64,000 nt of DNA from a virus. Shown here piece after piece: positions 10,558 to 51,046 of the stretch. How positions within the stretch are numbered: position 1 is the first letter of the stretch; every line of letters begins with the position of its first letter. The stretch spans positions 22,577-86,576 of IMG/VR virus record IMGVR_UViG_3300028423_001099. One strand, 5' to 3'. Position numbers and translations under genes: made by a program. Below the pieces are notes generated by a model that saw nothing but the letters and a program-made list of their open reading frames with translations, made no database searches and was not told where the DNA came from.

Positions 10558-11097
10558 TCAGAGATTATGCACATTAAAGGCCTTATAAGTGCGCTGAACG
10601 CACACTGCCTGCCAGTATGCATCGTCGTCAGCACTGTGTAGATTTTGCTGAACTTCTTTGCGCGGGTCTTTGGGCATCATGTTAAAAATAGTGCGACAGT
10701 CCATGATCTGCCAGAATGCCCAGTTTCTGTGATGCTGAAACTGGTCATAGAGATTTTCCAAGATAACCATATCAAACTGTGGTCCTTGACACCAAATTTT
10801 GTTGACACCCACTAGGTACTTGTTGAGTTCGCCAAAAAACTGCTCCAGTGGTATTCTGCCCTCTTCAGTGAACGTGCTTTCTCGTATCTTTTCGTCCTGC
10901 TTGCCCCACCATGCCAGTGTGTCCTCACCAACTGCTCTTCCTGCTTGCAACTGCTGTTCCACAGCTGGTCTCCACAACTGTTTGCTGTTGGGCTCTGTGA
11001 GCACATATGGATCAAATTTACATGCACCCACAGTGAGCACTGCTGCACCAGGTGATGTGTCAAGTGTCTCGATGTCAATCATTGCATGTGTTGTCAT
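10558..11097 (-). CDS. DnaQ-fold 3'-5' exoribonuclease-like protein (Rv2179c-like)
   Basis: A 179-residue protein starting MTTHAMIDIETLDTSPGAAV. The DIET motif is exonuclease motif I of the RNase H-like DEDD fold, and the LDTSPGAAVLTVGA context is typical of the Rv2179c-like exoribonuclease family. FDMVILENLYDQ fits motif II and HSADDDAYWQA fits motif III. It probably trims RNA or DNA 3' ends. An AAAGG site and a sigma70-like promoter precede the ATG, indicating early expression. It is the first gene of a unit with two downstream genes. Confidence 0.85.
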   Translation of the reverse strand: MTTHAMIDIETLDTSPGAAVLTVGACKFDPYVLTEPNSKQLWRPAVEQQLQAGRAVGEDTLAWWGKQDEKIRESTFTEEGRIPLEQFFGELNKYLVGVNKIWCQGPQFDMVILENLYDQFQHHRNWAFWQIMDCRTIFNMMPKDPRKEVQQNLHSADDDAYWQAVCVQRTYKAFNVHNL

Positions 11098-39121: not shown

Positions 39122-39945
39122 AGCTTGATTCCAAATAGTTGTTCATAGTCTTCTTGGTATTCACTACCACGAATGGCTGGTTCTCCTTCTGGGAACCTCT
39201 CTTCTAAGACACGTAGGGCATACAGATAGCTATACCATGCACTTGTTGCAATGGCTGGTTCGCCTTGGGGGAATCTCTCACTGAGGACATGTTTGGCATA
39301 CCCGAAGCTATACTCTGCATCCCCAGCAATAGCTGGTTCTCCTTCTGGGAATCTCGCACCGAGGACATCTTCGGCATACCCGAGGCTATACCGTGCATCG
39401 TCAGCAATAGCTGGTTCTCCTTCTGGGAATCTCTCACCGAGGACATTTCTGGCATACAGATAGCTATACCGTGCATCGCCAGCTATGGCTGGTTCGCCTT
39501 CTGGGAATCTCGCTTCTAGGACATCCAGGACATACCGATAGCTATGCCCTGCGCTCTCAGCTATGGCTGGTTCTCCTTCTGGGAATCTCCCACCGAGGAC
39601 ATTTCTGGCATACAGAAAGCTATACGCTGCATCCCCAGCTATGGCTGGTTCGCCAGCTGGGAATCTTCCTTCCACAACACCTTCGGCATACCGATAGCTA
39701 TACTTTGCATCTTCAGCTATGGCTGGTTCGCCAGCTGGGAATCTTCCTTCCACAACACCTTCGGCATACCGATAGCTATACTTTGCATCTTCAGCTATGG
39801 CTGGTTCTCCTGCTTGGAATCTCCCATGGAGGACTTGTCTGGCATACCGATAGCTATTGCTTGTGTTCTGGAAATCCACTGAGGAAATCAATATCTCTAC
39901 TTTCAATAGGGTCATCTTGTTCATCCATAAATTGACCCGATTCAT
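39118..39945 (-). CDS. Protein of nine 26-residue RFPEGEPAIA repeats
   Basis: The in-frame array has nine 26-residue units with consensus YSYRYAxxVLxxRFPEGEPAIAxxAx, ending GSEYQEDYEQLFGIKL. The repeat part covers residues ~30-265 of the 275-residue version. Tyr/Arg-rich helix alternating with a Gly-Glu-Pro turn suggests a solenoid. The true start is uncertain. ATGs at 39945, 39924 and 39915 all lie inside the overlapping upstream gene and lack the MSLNLY start of the sister protein at 41771, so the gene may have lost its own 5' end. Function is unknown. Confidence 0.6.
   Translation of the reverse strand: MNRVNLWMNKMTLLKVEILISSVDFQNTSNSYRYARQVLHGRFQAGEPAIAEDAKYSYRYAEGVVEGRFPAGEPAIAEDAKYSYRYAEGVVEGRFPAGEPAIAGDAAYSFLYARNVLGGRFPEGEPAIAESAGHSYRYVLDVLEARFPEGEPAIAGDARYSYLYARNVLGERFPEGEPAIADDARYSLGYAEDVLGARFPEGEPAIAGDAEYSFGYAKHVLSERFPQGEPAIATSAWYSYLYALRVLEERFPEGEPAIRGSEYQEDYEQLFGIKL
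39157..39858 (-). repeat. Tandem 78-bp repeat array, nine copies
   Basis: Nine 78-base units run without interruption. Units two and three from the 5' end (39625-39780) are nearly identical, which points to recent expansion. Confidence 0.9.
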
Positions 39946-40727: not shown

Positions 40728-41010
40728 TCATAACTTGATTCCAACTAGTTCTTCGTAGTCTTCTTGGTATTCACTACCACGGATGGCTGGTTCTCCTTGG
40801 GGGAATCTCTCTTCTAGGACATCTTCGGCATACAGATAGCTATACTCTGCGCTCTCAGCTATGGCTGGTTCTCCTTGGGGGAATCTCTCTTCTAGGACAT
40901 CTTCGGCATACCGATAGCTATACTTTGCATCTTCAGCTATGGCTGGTTCTCCTGCTTGGAATCTCCCATGGAGGACTTGTCTGGCATACCGATAGCTATT
41001 TCAGGCTCAC
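40728..41010 (-). pseudogene. Decayed copy of the RFPEGEPAIA repeat gene
   Basis: The frame from 41000 to the TGA at 40728-40730 encodes three repeat units and the ending EYQEDYEELVGIKL, but it has no start codon and is preceded by an in-frame TGA. At 41010 the sequence GTGAGCCTGAA matches the start of the MSLNLY genes, but reading it gives Met-Ser-Leu-Lys-stop. This looks like an internal deletion that joined the start of a repeat gene to its repeats out of frame. Downstream, ATGAGCCTGAGCAATGA at 40731 preserves the first codons of a copy of the 38429-39121 gene. Confidence 0.75.
40767..41000 (-). repeat. Second 78-bp repeat array, three copies
   Basis: The first unit is essentially the same DNA as the first unit of the nine-copy array (39781-39858), including the breakpoint sequence AATAGCTATCGG. 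The array is a partial duplication. Confidence 0.85.
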
Positions 41011-41774: not shown

Positions 41775-42199
41775 AGCTTGATTCCAAATATTTGTTCATA
41801 GTCTTCTTGGTATTCACTACCACGAATGGCTGGTTCGCCTTCCAGGAATCTCCCACTGAGGACACTGAGGGCATACAGATAGCTATACCCTGCGCTCTCA
41901 GCTATAGCTGGTTCGCCTTCTGGGAATCTCTCCTCGAGGACATCGTCGGCATACCAATGGCTATACTTTGCGCTTGTTGCAATGGCTGGTTCGCCTTCTG
42001 GGAATCTCTCCTCGAGGACATCGTCGGCATACCTATGGCTATACGCTGCACTCCTTGCCCATACGTGTTCTCGTTTCTTGAGTTCTTCAACATCACCTTT
42101 ATAGTGATTCCATGCCACATGGGGAACATGTTCAGTGGCTTGATCAAACCCATATAGGCTTTCAGGTTCGCTGTGGTATTGGTATAGATTTAGGCTCAT
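41771..42199 (-). CDS. Protein with three RFPEGEPAIA repeats, complete family member
   Basis: A 142-residue protein with all parts of the family: start MSLNLYQYHSEPESLYGFDQ, a 50-residue N-terminal region, three 26-residue repeats and the ending EYQEDYEQIFGIKL. It overlaps both neighbours by ATGA. It gives the reference structure for judging the other two arrays. Role is unknown. I recall similar repeat proteins in other T4-like phages, also without function. Confidence 0.8.
   Translation of the reverse strand: MSLNLYQYHSEPESLYGFDQATEHVPHVAWNHYKGDVEELKKREHVWARSAAYSHRYADDVLEERFPEGEPAIATSAKYSHWYADDVLEERFPEGEPAIAESAGYSYLYALSVLSGRFLEGEPAIRGSEYQEDYEQIFGIKL
41810..42043 (-). repeat. Third 78-bp repeat array, three copies
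   Basis: Three in-frame 78-base units. The first two share long identical blocks (ADDVLEERFPEGEPAIATSA-type units). Confidence 0.85.
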
Positions 42200-46068: not shown

Positions 46069-46076
46069 TATTTATC
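46069..46076 (-). promoter_or_regulatory. Late promoter octamer GATAAATA overlapping the gene 41 stop
   Basis: On the minus strand the TGA stop of the helicase gene runs into GATAAATA. The octamer lies 27 bases before the GTG at 46041 and drives the late unit 45.8 to 41 kb. Confidence 0.72.
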
Positions 46077-47454
46077 ACTTCTTGCTCTTCAAAAAGTCTC
46101 TGAGTTGTAAGCTATCGCTGACTGCATTGCCTGTTTCGGGTTCTTGTGCACGCACTGTTCCTGATCTTTTTAGCTGATCAATGAGTGCTGTGCTGGCCAC
46201 AGTGTCTGCGTCTTCTTCGCCTTCTTCTAGATCCTCAATCCTCAATGTGTCGGGATTGAATTTGAGATCCACTTTGCTGCCAACGCCACTGCTGGATCGT
46301 GTCTTCATAAACTGTATTTGATATCTGCCTCGATCGCGCATGGCATTGCTAGTAAAGATACCAATCACATTGTCTGCTGTTTGAATCTTGGAAATACCTC
46401 CAGCAATGTGGCTGTGATCAAACTCAATTTCTTCTACTGCGGCCCTGTTGAGCTGTGAAGCTGTGACCATGAGGATATCTCGCTCAGCAGCCAAGTTTCT
46501 CAGTTCTTCACTGACAAATTTGTCTTTGATAAAAGTGTTCTCTGCACTGACCTTGCCGTTGATAGGCATCATCAAGTCCAAGTAATCCACCAGCAGACAG
46601 TCTACTTTAACGCCGGCCTGTATTTCATATTCGCGCAAAAATGCGCGAACATCGTTGGCGTTGATGCCCGAAGGCATATATTTCACACGAAACTTGCCAG
46701 CGCCCTTGCCTTTCATCCTGACTTTGAGATCCACGTCATCCATGTTGCGCATGATCTCACGTGCGCCATAGCCAGATACCATGCTGTCTAGCCTCATGGA
46801 AATCAACTGTTCACTGAGCTCTAAGCTGATATAGACCACGTTGAGACCTGCCAGACTCCAGTTTACGCCAAAGTTCTGCAAGAATAGGCTTTTGCCTGCG
46901 CCAGACCCGCCTGCAAAGATTGTGATTTCGCCTCTGTTGAGACCACCGTAGAGTTTCTGATCAATGCCTTTCCAGCCTGTGGAAGTAGCGCCGCTTTGAT
47001 CCTTGATCCACTGCAAACGCTCTTTGGGGTTTTCAAAATAATCTAGGCCTAGGTCTCTGACCAATGCAGTTTGAACGGCAGACTTGATTTTGTTTTCTAC
47101 TTCGCCGTACTGTTGATCTTCAAGCAGGTCTGTGCTCTCTAGGATTGCACGTTCTAGAGCTTTGTGTCTGCTAAAAGTCTCAAACTCATCCAGGAACCAA
47201 TTTTGATGGTCTGGAGTGACGTTTTCGATCTGTTCAAGAGTGATGTTGCTGATAGCATTGATTTGATCCAGTGTGGGCACACTGTTGTAGTTGCTGCTGT
47301 GATGCTGTAGTAGCTCTACCACAGGACGAAACTTTCTAGCAAAATGTTCTGGATTTACAATGTTCTGACAGCGTGCAAATAGGTCGTGATCACTGATCAA
47401 GAATCTCAAAAACAGCTCTTGAACTTCTTCTGTGTAATCTCTCATTTCGCTCAT
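46075..47454 (-). CDS. 41: Replicative DNA helicase (T4 gp41-like, DnaB family)
   Basis: This 459-residue hexameric helicase unwinds DNA at the phage fork. It has an N-terminal helical domain, then Walker A GGSGAGKS (182-189) in a RecA-like core, VDCLLVDYLDLMMP as Walker B, and ASQLNRAAVEE and IQFMKTRSSSGVGSK as later DnaB motifs. The acidic linker EDLEEGEEDAD precedes a C-terminal tail. The start overlaps the primase gene by ATGA, matching the physical pairing of gp41 and gp61. Confidence 0.95.
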   Translation of the reverse strand: MSEMRDYTEEVQELFLRFLISDHDLFARCQNIVNPEHFARKFRPVVELLQHHSSNYNSVPTLDQINAISNITLEQIENVTPDHQNWFLDEFETFSRHKALERAILESTDLLEDQQYGEVENKIKSAVQTALVRDLGLDYFENPKERLQWIKDQSGATSTGWKGIDQKLYGGLNRGEITIFAGGSGAGKSLFLQNFGVNWSLAGLNVVYISLELSEQLISMRLDSMVSGYGAREIMRNMDDVDLKVRMKGKGAGKFRVKYMPSGINANDVRAFLREYEIQAGVKVDCLLVDYLDLMMPINGKVSAENTFIKDKFVSEELRNLAAERDILMVTASQLNRAAVEEIEFDHSHIAGGISKIQTADNVIGIFTSNAMRDRGRYQIQFMKTRSSSGVGSKVDLKFNPDTLRIEDLEEGEEDADTVASTALIDQLKRSGTVRAQEPETGNAVSDSLQLRDFLKSKK

Positions 47455-48425
47455 AGCATTCTGCTCTGCACTTGTATTTTAATTTTGTTGTCAGTTGCGT
47501 GTGTAATTATGCTCTCCAAGGTGGCAAGTCTACCATATCTTGAACAAGCATCGGCTGCATCTTTGCAGTCTGCGTGCCAGGGTGGAAAACTCACTGACCA
47601 CCCTAGCTCTGCGGCCTGACCAATGAGTTCTTTGCCTGCTTGATCTCTGTCTGGGCACACAATAACCTCCTTGTTGAGGCTTTCAATGAGATGTGCCTGT
47701 TCTGGACTCATCTTGTTGCTCATCACTGCCACACCGTCCACAAGTATGGCATCAAAAAGTCCTTCAACAACAACCACAACTTCTCTGTGAGCATCAGCAA
47801 AACGGTCTACATTGAACACATATCCCGAAGGATGGTTGCTTAAAAACTTGGGTGTGTGTTTGTCAGGAGGATCAATGTGACGTGCGCTCCAGCCTACAAG
47901 ATCGCCGTTGTAGGTAAACGGCACAACCACACGTCTGCGATAGGCTGTTCCTGGAAAGTGCAACAGAGGATACAATCCCATAATTCCTCTGTGTTTTGCA
48001 TATACTTTTAGTTCATGTTCATCAGGTAGATCGGTGATGCTTTGTGTGTCTTCGGGCAAGTCAGCGTGTTCAAACTTGCAGAAATCATATGTGGGCGACT
48101 GCACAGCACAGTCATAGAGCTCTGTGCTGTGTTCCAACAACAACAATTGTGCAGCCTGTATCTCAGTGTCTGTGGCGCCAAGTGCAGTGACCAGCTTGCG
48201 ATATTTCTTGCTGAGATGCGGTGCTGGGCTCCAGCCTGCCTTGAATCCACAGTTAAAGCAGTGATAGCTGATGCGTGGACCATCAATGATAACGCCGCCG
48301 CGTCGGCGCTTGTCGCTGCACACCGGACAATCAAAGCTGGTCCAGCCGCTGGGTGTACGCCCTGAACGCACAGGCAGATGATCCATCACTAGCCTGTGTA
48401 CATTTTGTATCACTGTTTCGACCAT
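47451..48425 (-). CDS. 61: DNA primase (T4 gp61-like)
   Basis: A 324-residue primase. The N-terminal zinc ribbon has Cys33-PV-Cys36 and Cys56-FN-Cys59. The TOPRIM domain shows VVVEGLFDAILVDG and PDRDQAGKEL. It makes RNA primers with gp41. The sigma70-like promoter at 48432-48460 has 17-base spacing and only 6 bases between TATAAT and ATG, so the mRNA should begin at the AUG itself. No ribosome site is possible in that transcript. Confidence 0.94.
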   Translation of the reverse strand: MVETVIQNVHRLVMDHLPVRSGRTPSGWTSFDCPVCSDKRRRGGVIIDGPRISYHCFNCGFKAGWSPAPHLSKKYRKLVTALGATDTEIQAAQLLLLEHSTELYDCAVQSPTYDFCKFEHADLPEDTQSITDLPDEHELKVYAKHRGIMGLYPLLHFPGTAYRRRVVVPFTYNGDLVGWSARHIDPPDKHTPKFLSNHPSGYVFNVDRFADAHREVVVVVEGLFDAILVDGVAVMSNKMSPEQAHLIESLNKEVIVCPDRDQAGKELIGQAAELGWSVSFPPWHADCKDAADACSRYGRLATLESIITHATDNKIKIQVQSRML

Positions 48426-49291: not shown

Positions 49292-49327
49292 CACAAACCA
49301 ACATTGTTACAGCGATCTTGCATTCGT

Positions 49328-49335
49328 GGTAAATA
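49328..49335 (+). promoter_or_regulatory. Late promoter-like octamer GGTAAATA
   Basis: A one-base variant 8 bases before the ATG at 49344, divergent from the octamer at 49284. Confidence 0.45.
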
Positions 49336-49343
49336 AAGCTGGT

Positions 49344-49715
49344 ATGTTAGACAACGAAAATCCCTACACACAGTTTGAATTTCTCACTGGAATATCCTAT
49401 GCCGGCAACGAGTATGTGGGCATAGTGGTCAACCAAGACAACCAAATTCTCACTTTCTATGATGTAGACAGCATCGGCACCACAGAAAACAAACAGATTT
49501 TCTTGGGGTTAGGAGAGCTTTGGTGGTGGGAAAGCAACCGCCAGCTGCCCATTGATGTGTTTTTGCACCATGAAATGCGTCAATTTCACCATTGTTTGAA
49601 GACGTTTTCCATGAAGGATGTGGAGATTTTATTTGGGCCTGTGACCAGTCTACAAAACCTCATCAAAAAACGCATCAAGCGTCGCAGTATACAGCTGGTG
49701 CGGAAGACCGACTAA
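49344..49715 (+). CDS. Lone plus-strand hypothetical protein
   Basis: A 123-residue protein starting MLDNENPYTQFEFLTGISYA. It has a beta-rich first half (EYVGIVVNQDNQILTFYDVD), a Trp run (GELWWWESNRQLPIDVFLHH) and a basic C-terminal helix (KKRIKRRSIQLVRKTD). It looks like a small folded phage protein of unknown role. The ATG at 49344 is preferred to GTG at 49326, which precedes the promoter-like octamer. Its tail overlaps the DnaE-like gene by 4 bases. Confidence 0.7.
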   Translation: MLDNENPYTQFEFLTGISYAGNEYVGIVVNQDNQILTFYDVDSIGTTENKQIFLGLGELWWWESNRQLPIDVFLHHEMRQFHHCLKTFSMKDVEILFGPVTSLQNLIKKRIKRRSIQLVRKTD

Positions 49716-50305
49716 ACATCAACCTGTGTTAGCTGCTCACAGAGCAGATTCAGCTGAACCACAATTACCATAGCATAAGCAACAGCGTGTGACTTCTTGA
49801 AATAGTAGCTGTTGTCTTTGGGCTTGGTCCAGATACTATCTCCTATGGTCTCCCAGGATTCTCCCATGAGATGTTTTTTGCTGGGGCGTATCAATGCAAG
49901 AATCATTGCCAGCTGATCAATGCTTTTAGGCTTGTATTTGCTCAACAGCCAGTGATATTTGTTGATGTGAAAAAGCTGTTCTACAACTTCTTGATGTTCG
50001 AGTAATTCCCACAGCGGCTCTTTTTCCATGAGCGTGTCAAGATGAGCACTGTTGCGCACGCCTTTGTACACACTGTTGTTTAGTATGTCTACTTTAAAGT
50101 AGCCTTCCTGTTCTGCAGATTTATGATCAATGGCGCTGTGGCCGGCAAGAGGCTCCATGGGTATGTTCTGCAAGTAGATACCTGTGTTGTGTTTTACAAG
50201 CCCGTCGTTGGTTTGTATACTGGCAGACGTGTAATTGAGACACTTGAGCAGTTCACTTCTATCAGCTACGTCGATGTCTACGTCAAAGTCAATTGCTGTT
50301 TGCAT
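49712..50305 (-). CDS. Stand-alone DnaE-like fragment (C-family DNA polymerase fingers region)
   Basis: A 197-residue protein whose order of motifs follows bacterial Pol III alpha: KHNTGIYLQNIPMEP (like the H-x-x-G-hydrophobic-P strand), EQEGYFKVDILNNSVYKGVR (like KMDFLGLxTL), PLWELLEHQEVVEQLFHI, KPKSIDQLAMILALIRPSKK (like RPxSLEDLxAxxALxRPG) and YFKKSHAVAYAMVI (like FNKSHAxAYA). The PHP domain and the catalytic palm Asp residues are missing, so it cannot polymerise alone. It could be a domesticated beta-clamp or polymerase-interacting fragment. The ATG at 50305 is chosen. It overlaps the upstream gene by 17 bases. Confidence 0.75.
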   Translation of the reverse strand: MQTAIDFDVDIDVADRSELLKCLNYTSASIQTNDGLVKHNTGIYLQNIPMEPLAGHSAIDHKSAEQEGYFKVDILNNSVYKGVRNSAHLDTLMEKEPLWELLEHQEVVEQLFHINKYHWLLSKYKPKSIDQLAMILALIRPSKKHLMGESWETIGDSIWTKPKDNSYYFKKSHAVAYAMVIVVQLNLLCEQLTQVDV

Positions 50306-50495
50306 ATTTTTTCGCAGTATAGAAGTCGTGTATTTCTTTGATATCAATGTTTATAATTTTCACGTCACTGAGATAGAACTTTCTAGCTATGGTTTGTGCA
50401 TCAGCTGACGTGTCAGCTTCGACCACAAAACATCTAGTGCCAGATTTTTTCCTTGTGTGCCTGTTATATGAGCACTCAACATAGTATTTTTGCAT
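50289..50495 (-). CDS. Small hypothetical protein before the DnaE-like gene
   Basis: A 68-residue protein starting MQKYYVECSYNRHTRKKSGT with a compact alpha/beta look (RCFVVEADTSADAQTIARKF). AGAAGG precedes the ATG. A sigma70-like promoter lies upstream. It overlaps the DnaE-like gene by 17 bases, so the two are probably made together. No family is recognised. Confidence 0.75.
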   Translation of the reverse strand: MQKYYVECSYNRHTRKKSGTRCFVVEADTSADAQTIARKFYLSDVKIINIDIKEIHDFYTAKKYANSN

Positions 50496-50529: not shown

Positions 50530-50558
50530 TATTTTAACAGCAAACACTCATATGTCAA
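50530..50558 (-). promoter_or_regulatory. Sigma70-like promoter for the DnaE-like unit
   Basis: TTGACA (50558-50553) with a TAAAAT-type -10 box about 16 bases away on the minus strand, ahead of the gene starting at 50495. Confidence 0.55.
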
Positions 50559-51046
50559 TCATAAAAGCGATGTCGGCGCAGTTTTGAAACCAGCTCGTCG
50601 CCGCATGGTGTTTCAAAATTGTTTCCTCCTTTGAGGAAGACGCGACCAACATTGTCTTTTTCGTGAGTATATCCTTGAACTTCCATGAGATCAACAAACA
50701 CACCATCGTTGAGCTGCACAAACACACACTGATAACTGGAATCTTGTTTGAGTCTCGACACAAGCTCGTCCCCACAGGGAGTATCAAAGCTGTTTCCGCC
50801 TTTGAGAAACACTGTGCCTTTGCCTTCGTGTTTTAGTGCGTGACCTTGAATCTGAGTCAGGTCCACAAATACACCGTCGTTGAGCTGGACGAATAGACCC
50901 TGAGACTGTGCTTGTTGTTCCAGAGATACAGGTGTACCGGAAAATAGACTGCTGGAAGATTCAGTGACAGACTCGTCCGCTGTGTTGTCTTTGATGCTTT
51001 CGCCTACTTTGGTTTTTTCAACCACTTTTCTTTTTGTTTCTGCCAT
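50555..51046 (-). CDS. Protein with two tandem copies of a FVQLNDGVFVDL domain
   Basis: A 163-residue protein. After a charged, Ser-rich N-terminal 45 residues it has two ~55-residue copies, each with VQLNDGVFVDL, VFLKGGNxFxTPCGDELVS and one conserved Cys. The copies differ mainly in the middle, so duplication is old enough to diverge but the motifs are kept. GAGGA precedes the ATG. Function is unknown. The domain looks like a small beta-rich binding unit. Confidence 0.8.
   Translation of the reverse strand: MAETKRKVVEKTKVGESIKDNTADESVTESSSSLFSGTPVSLEQQAQSQGLFVQLNDGVFVDLTQIQGHALKHEGKGTVFLKGGNSFDTPCGDELVSRLKQDSSYQCVFVQLNDGVFVDLMEVQGYTHEKDNVGRVFLKGGNNFETPCGDELVSKLRRHRFYD

Follow-up and report, generated by a model that had tools for sequence, protein, structure and literature searches.

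A virus contig encodes a new member of the split Pol III alpha family, probably one half of a two-protein minimal C-family enzyme

The minus-strand gene described here encodes a new member of the already published split Pol III alpha family, and its product is probably the C-terminal half, the one that binds metal, of a minimal C-family enzyme made of two proteins, likely an accessory polymerase or nucleotidyltransferase. The protein is homologous to Pol III alpha, retains the catalytic residues, and co-occurs in phage genomes with a second piece, with which it tiles the polymerase palm almost exactly. The gene lies in the window, by which we mean the whole 64,000-nucleotide stretch analyzed (bases 22577-86576 of an 86,576-base virus contig, itself incomplete). 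It was read from an ATG start; an alternative TTG start at 50347 is possible, and the family alignment favours the ATG (15- and 30-row alignments). Iyer et al. 2021 (PMC7824862) described a phage-specific minimal Pol III alpha that group 2.2 jumbo phages carry beside a B-family polymerase; they read it as divided between an N-terminal NTP-binding protein and a C-terminal protein that binds metal and template, and proposed that the two join to give an active enzyme. In the open-access literature searched, genome papers note single pieces, and no biochemical study of the split pair was found. The features of the region are listed in Table 1, and the two proteins are hereafter called the C-piece and the N-piece.

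Table 1. Positions of the C-piece gene, its motifs and its neighbours in the window.
Feature	Position	Strand	Remarks
C-terminal piece of split minimal Pol III alpha	49712..50305	-	197 aa, phrog_11778; palm strands with three catalytic Asp, and shortened fingers
D-V-D-I-D motif, residues 8-12	50270..50284	-	D8/D10 align with E. coli DnaE D401/D403 (hhalign)
H-N-T-G, residues 39-42	50180..50191	-	aligns with E. coli KHAGG (H511)
K-V-D, residues 71-73	50087..50095	-	D73 aligns with E. coli D555, K71 with K553
R-P-S-K, residues 140-143	49877..49888	-	aligns with RPGP motif of Pol III alpha fingers
K-K-S-H, residues 170-173	49787..49798	-	aligns with F-N-K-S-H of Pol III alpha fingers
Convergent neighbour gene	49326..49715	+	129 aa, phrog_11637; overlaps C-piece 3' end by 4 nt
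DNA primase, gp61-like	47451..48425	-	conserved neighbourhood
DnaB-like helicase, gp41-like	46075..47454	-	conserved neighbourhood
68-aa ORF upstream of C-piece	50289..50495	-	overlaps C-piece gene by 17 nt
Sigma70-like promoter match, TTGACA-16-TAAAAT	50558-50531	-	11 of 12; upstream of 68-aa ORF

The original prediction saw a DnaE-like protein in this gene and proposed a sensitive profile search against DnaE and a structural comparison with Pol III alpha; the likeness proved real by both. In profile searches, the protein matched phrog_11778 over its full length (residues 7-192) at 5.5e-73 and, more weakly, the full-length phage Pol III alpha family phrog_405 at 1.1e-07. Profile-profile comparison (hhalign) of the C-piece family with 47 DnaE proteins, including that of E. 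coli, gave three collinear aligned stretches with a score of 53.8, whereas the best of 40 column shuffles reached 24.2 and the reversed alignment 24.7. Searches of Pfam and NCBIfam alone miss the C-piece, with scores below the cut-off. In a PDB profile search, a tRNA-(MS2IO6A)-hydroxylase ranked first at 0.006; this match was judged to be chance because fold search and profile comparisons give it no support. The only matches of a single-sequence PDB search with the window protein were designed proteins, likewise due to chance.

The predicted fold agrees with these results. An AlphaFold2 model built from 30 sequences (the window and IMG/VR) had a pLDDT of 89.1 and a pTM of 0.65, and its best 12 PDB matches in Foldseek were all Pol III alpha or C-family polymerase. 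In a second structural comparison, the top 13 rows were all Pol III alpha or PolC (Z 6.3-10.0, the best over 194 residues), and the first unrelated row followed at Z 3.7. Residues 1-195 of the model span, with gaps, residues 395-784 of the E. coli, 456-841 of the Taq and 414-808 of the Mtb enzyme, and 966-1358 of PolC. The profile comparison with its shuffled control and the structural comparison thus point to a palm nucleotidyltransferase fold homologous to that of Pol III alpha.

The original prediction described a fragment from around the fingers that lacks the catalytic palm residues. The core of the fingers is indeed present; the second part of the description was wrong, since the protein also holds palm strands on which D8, D10 and D73 align with D401, D403 and D555, the established catalytic residues of E. 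coli DnaE. Around these positions, F-D-V-D-I-D of the C-piece aligns with P-D-F-D-V-D of E. coli, and K-V-D-I-L with K-F-D-F-L. Across 98 distinct family sequences, D12, H39, G42, K71, D73, R140, P141, K143, K170, H173 and N186 were invariant, and D8 and D10 were missing from a single sequence, which is truncated by the end of its contig. With all three aspartates in place and conserved in this way, a non-catalytic fingers fragment was ruled out, and the active site of the C-piece, as judged by its catalytic residues, is intact.

Large parts of Pol III alpha are nevertheless missing. As originally predicted, the protein has no PHP domain; relative to E. coli, the hhalign alignment also lacks the thumb (residues ~421-506) and the middle of the fingers (~643-733), and everything past residue 784 is absent, including the OB part and the parts that bind clamp and tau. 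In E. coli Pol III alpha, the clamp-binding motif lies at about 920-924 and the tau-binding region is C-terminal. These absences bear on the suggestion that the protein is a decoy for host takeover, which would mimic or bind host Pol III parts (clamp, clamp loader or alpha) and so sabotage host replication. The resemblance of the C-piece to host DnaE and the promoter-like site upstream would suit such a role, but sequestration of the clamp or clamp loader is unsupported because the chain ends before the regions that bind them, and a clamp-sequestering decoy is unlikely. Nor would a decoy need invariant catalytic residues or be expected to persist across phages of many different hosts, and we consider a decoy of any of these kinds very improbable. 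The Q-L-N-L-L of the last helix bears a loose resemblance to a clamp motif, but it was rejected as a conserved one, since family members differ at this site (VHMN, VQMN, LQLN), whereas N186 never changes.

The part of the palm that the C-piece lacks is found in the N-piece (phrog_11127), which has about 170 aa and its own gene at another site in the genomes that carry the C-piece. Profile comparison by hhalign places the N-piece on residues 318-393 of E. coli DnaE, with a score of 90.8 against 24.0 for the best shuffle, and the protein carries an invariant G-R-G-S motif. In the nucleotidyltransferase fold of Pol III alpha, the GRGS motif binds triphosphate. The predicted structure of the N-piece had a pLDDT of 90.1, and the second structural comparison matched it to Pol III alpha and PolC only (Z 7.8-12.0). 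One such protein, CBB gp328 (172 aa), was annotated as a truncated Pol III alpha (PMC5259590); it matches phrog_11127 and also PF07733 (2.1e-08, above the cut-off). The N-piece model covers E. coli 271-393 and ends at residue 413 of the Mtb enzyme, 455 of Taq and 964 of PolC, and the C-piece model starts at 395, 414, 456 and 966 of the E. coli, Mtb, Taq and PolC structures, respectively. On all four structures, therefore, the two models tile the palm without overlap, with the predicted cut just before D401-x-D403.

The two pieces also occur together. The N-piece was present in at least 61 of the 63 phage records with a C-piece; the two records in which it was not confirmed are a 109-kb RaK2-type record, which is probably partial, and that of a second Alishewanella phage, whose near relative has the N-piece. 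In complete genomes, the two genes lie 11 to 224 kb apart and were never seen side by side, and a search of 105 C-ORFs and about 90 stand-alone N-ORFs turned up no fusion; this separation counts against the two-piece reading. Comparison of the two pieces with each other revealed no sequence likeness. No third Pol III alpha piece was found in the complete relatives, where phrog_405 matched only the N- and C-pieces at E<0.01; a match of 0.01 in Phosso was judged to be noise. The N-piece was not found in the present 86.6-kb record, possibly just because the record is incomplete. Because the C-piece co-occurs with a protein that supplies the missing part of the palm, an enzyme is favoured over a decoy.

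In such an enzyme, the C-piece would supply the metal-binding half, and the N-piece the GRGS motif and the initial part of the palm. Joined, the two would restore the palm and the fingers core but none of the PHP, thumb, clamp-binding, OB and tau-binding parts. Such a pair would most likely serve as an accessory polymerase or nucleotidyltransferase alongside the B-family polymerase of the phage, for instance in gap filling or repair near the gp61/gp41 primosome. We infer the physical assembly of the two pieces, as well as their activity and role. We give even odds to the proposal that the two pieces make up an active C-family polymerase of two subunits and ~370 aa, with an active site shared by both proteins and with no thumb or PHP, working beside a B-family replicase. 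A normal grip on DNA is doubtful, because the alignment places no residues in the thumb or the middle of the fingers. For the same reason, the pair could possibly be an active nucleotidyltransferase other than a templated DNA polymerase, serving for instance in end tailing or in RNA or protein modification. The invariance of the catalytic aspartates and of GRGS, combined with the loss of the DNA-gripping parts, would fit this alternative, as would the B-family replicase that the relatives already have. However, the template-side fingers motifs (RP, F-K-K-S-H) are invariant or nearly so, and the gene sits by primase and helicase genes in the relatives inspected; we therefore consider this alternative rather unlikely and retain the accessory C-family enzyme as the better account.

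A C-piece of the phrog_11778 type was detected by tblastn in 63 phage records, including RaK2-, PBECO4-, CBB- and PA5oct-like phages, Atu_ph07, Phosso, SCTP-2 and two 141-kb Alishewanella phages, and in at least 571 stretches of IMG/VR. The window protein is about 36-51% identical to the C-pieces of named phages, and C-pieces kept across phages of many different hosts show about 38-62% identity to it. In a bacterial genome collection, the C-piece occurred in 8 metagenome-assembled contigs only, which were read as phage contigs; the family therefore looks phage-specific, with no sign of a cellular family. The C-piece is much shorter than any cellular Pol III alpha, and this might indicate a degenerate remnant of a once complete DnaE without present function. 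However, its reading frame was open in 105 of 105 loci (182-232 codons between stops), the active-site residues are invariant, the neighbourhood is fixed and the gene is present in distant phages, so that decay of this kind is extremely improbable.

The gene order around the C-piece is shared by RaK2, PBECO4, CBB, XaC1, PA5oct-like phages, SCTP-2, Phosso and Atu_ph07, with small variations: the C-piece is followed by the convergent phrog_11637 gene, one or two further genes, the primase and the gp41-like helicase. The phrog_11637 gene adjoins the C-piece in 104 of 105 loci and is possibly linked to it in function. Its product is strongly conserved, with the pattern WWWESNR...KR.KR..IQLV.K. The original prediction had instead assigned a small partner gene to the C-piece, with which it would share a sigma70-like promoter. 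The 68-aa upstream ORF has no relative in any locus compared, and the conserved neighbour is the convergent gene. The promoter match itself stands, but such sites are not in excess in the region (7 found against 4.8 expected from shuffles). Further upstream, a 163-aa ORF at 50555-51046 (-) contains an internal duplication, in which FVQLNDGVFVDL...GGN.F.TPCGDELVS appears twice; profile searches gave no significant family match for it. Elsewhere in the window, related tandem repeats with a unit of 78 bp (26 codons) form three arrays, at 39173-39857, 40783-40999 and 41825-42053, with up to 8.8 copies and 79-87% matches. These arrays overlap or sit between predicted ORFs and may represent a repeat protein or a mobile repeat.

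The surroundings of the gene are T4-like, as assumed in the original prediction. Besides the gp41-like helicase and the gp61-like primase, the window encodes UvsX, UvsW and a single-strand binding protein (SSB). A B-family polymerase was found in 9 of 9 searched records of relatives of at least 286 kb, but none was found in the partial 86.6-kb record. The C-family protein is thus DnaE-like, lacks PHP and belongs to a lineage that otherwise uses a B-family polymerase, as had been suggested, but it is not a non-catalytic fragment. A DnaQ/Rv2179c-like 3'-5' exonuclease is encoded at window positions 10558-11097 (-) (PF16473, 2.6e-32). An exonuclease resembling Pol III epsilon is likewise encoded by other jumbo phages in which the polymerase is split (PMC5259590, PMC6102473).

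If the proposed pairing is correct, a two-piece C-family enzyme of ~370 aa would fall far below every cellular Pol III alpha in size and would show how little of Pol III alpha catalysis needs. It would also make testable why a phage keeps a bacterial-type polymerase beside a B-family enzyme.

The bacterial DnaE proteins (E. coli 2hnh, Taq 3e0d, M. tuberculosis 5lew) and PolC (3f2b) have the palm fold, the three aspartates and the fingers core in common with the C-piece. In contrast, they are chains of about 1,000 aa or more with PHP, thumb, clamp-binding, OB and tau-binding parts, whereas the C-piece has 197 aa, has none of these parts and belongs to a palm split over two proteins. The DnaE proteins of other phages (phrog_405; for example that of Pseudomonas phage nickie, 1130 aa) are homologous to the C-piece in the shared regions but, unlike the split pair, each consist of one full-length polymerase. 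Another way of splitting or interrupting a phage DnaE is suggested by Bacillus phage KLEB27-3 and Thomasclavelia phage TR-TP1, in which an HNH endonuclease gene lies between two polymerase genes. The closest counterpart is the split Pol III alpha of group 2.2 jumbo phages, which matches the window protein in family, size, catalytic motifs and neighbourhood; the complete jumbo-phage relatives have both pieces and a B-family polymerase, whereas the partial record shows neither the N-piece nor that polymerase. Our analysis agrees with that of Iyer et al. 2021 and adds the exact position of the cut, the invariance of key residues, controls by shuffling and a count of co-occurrence, and the window contributes one more member, evidence of an intact active site and a conserved convergent neighbour gene.
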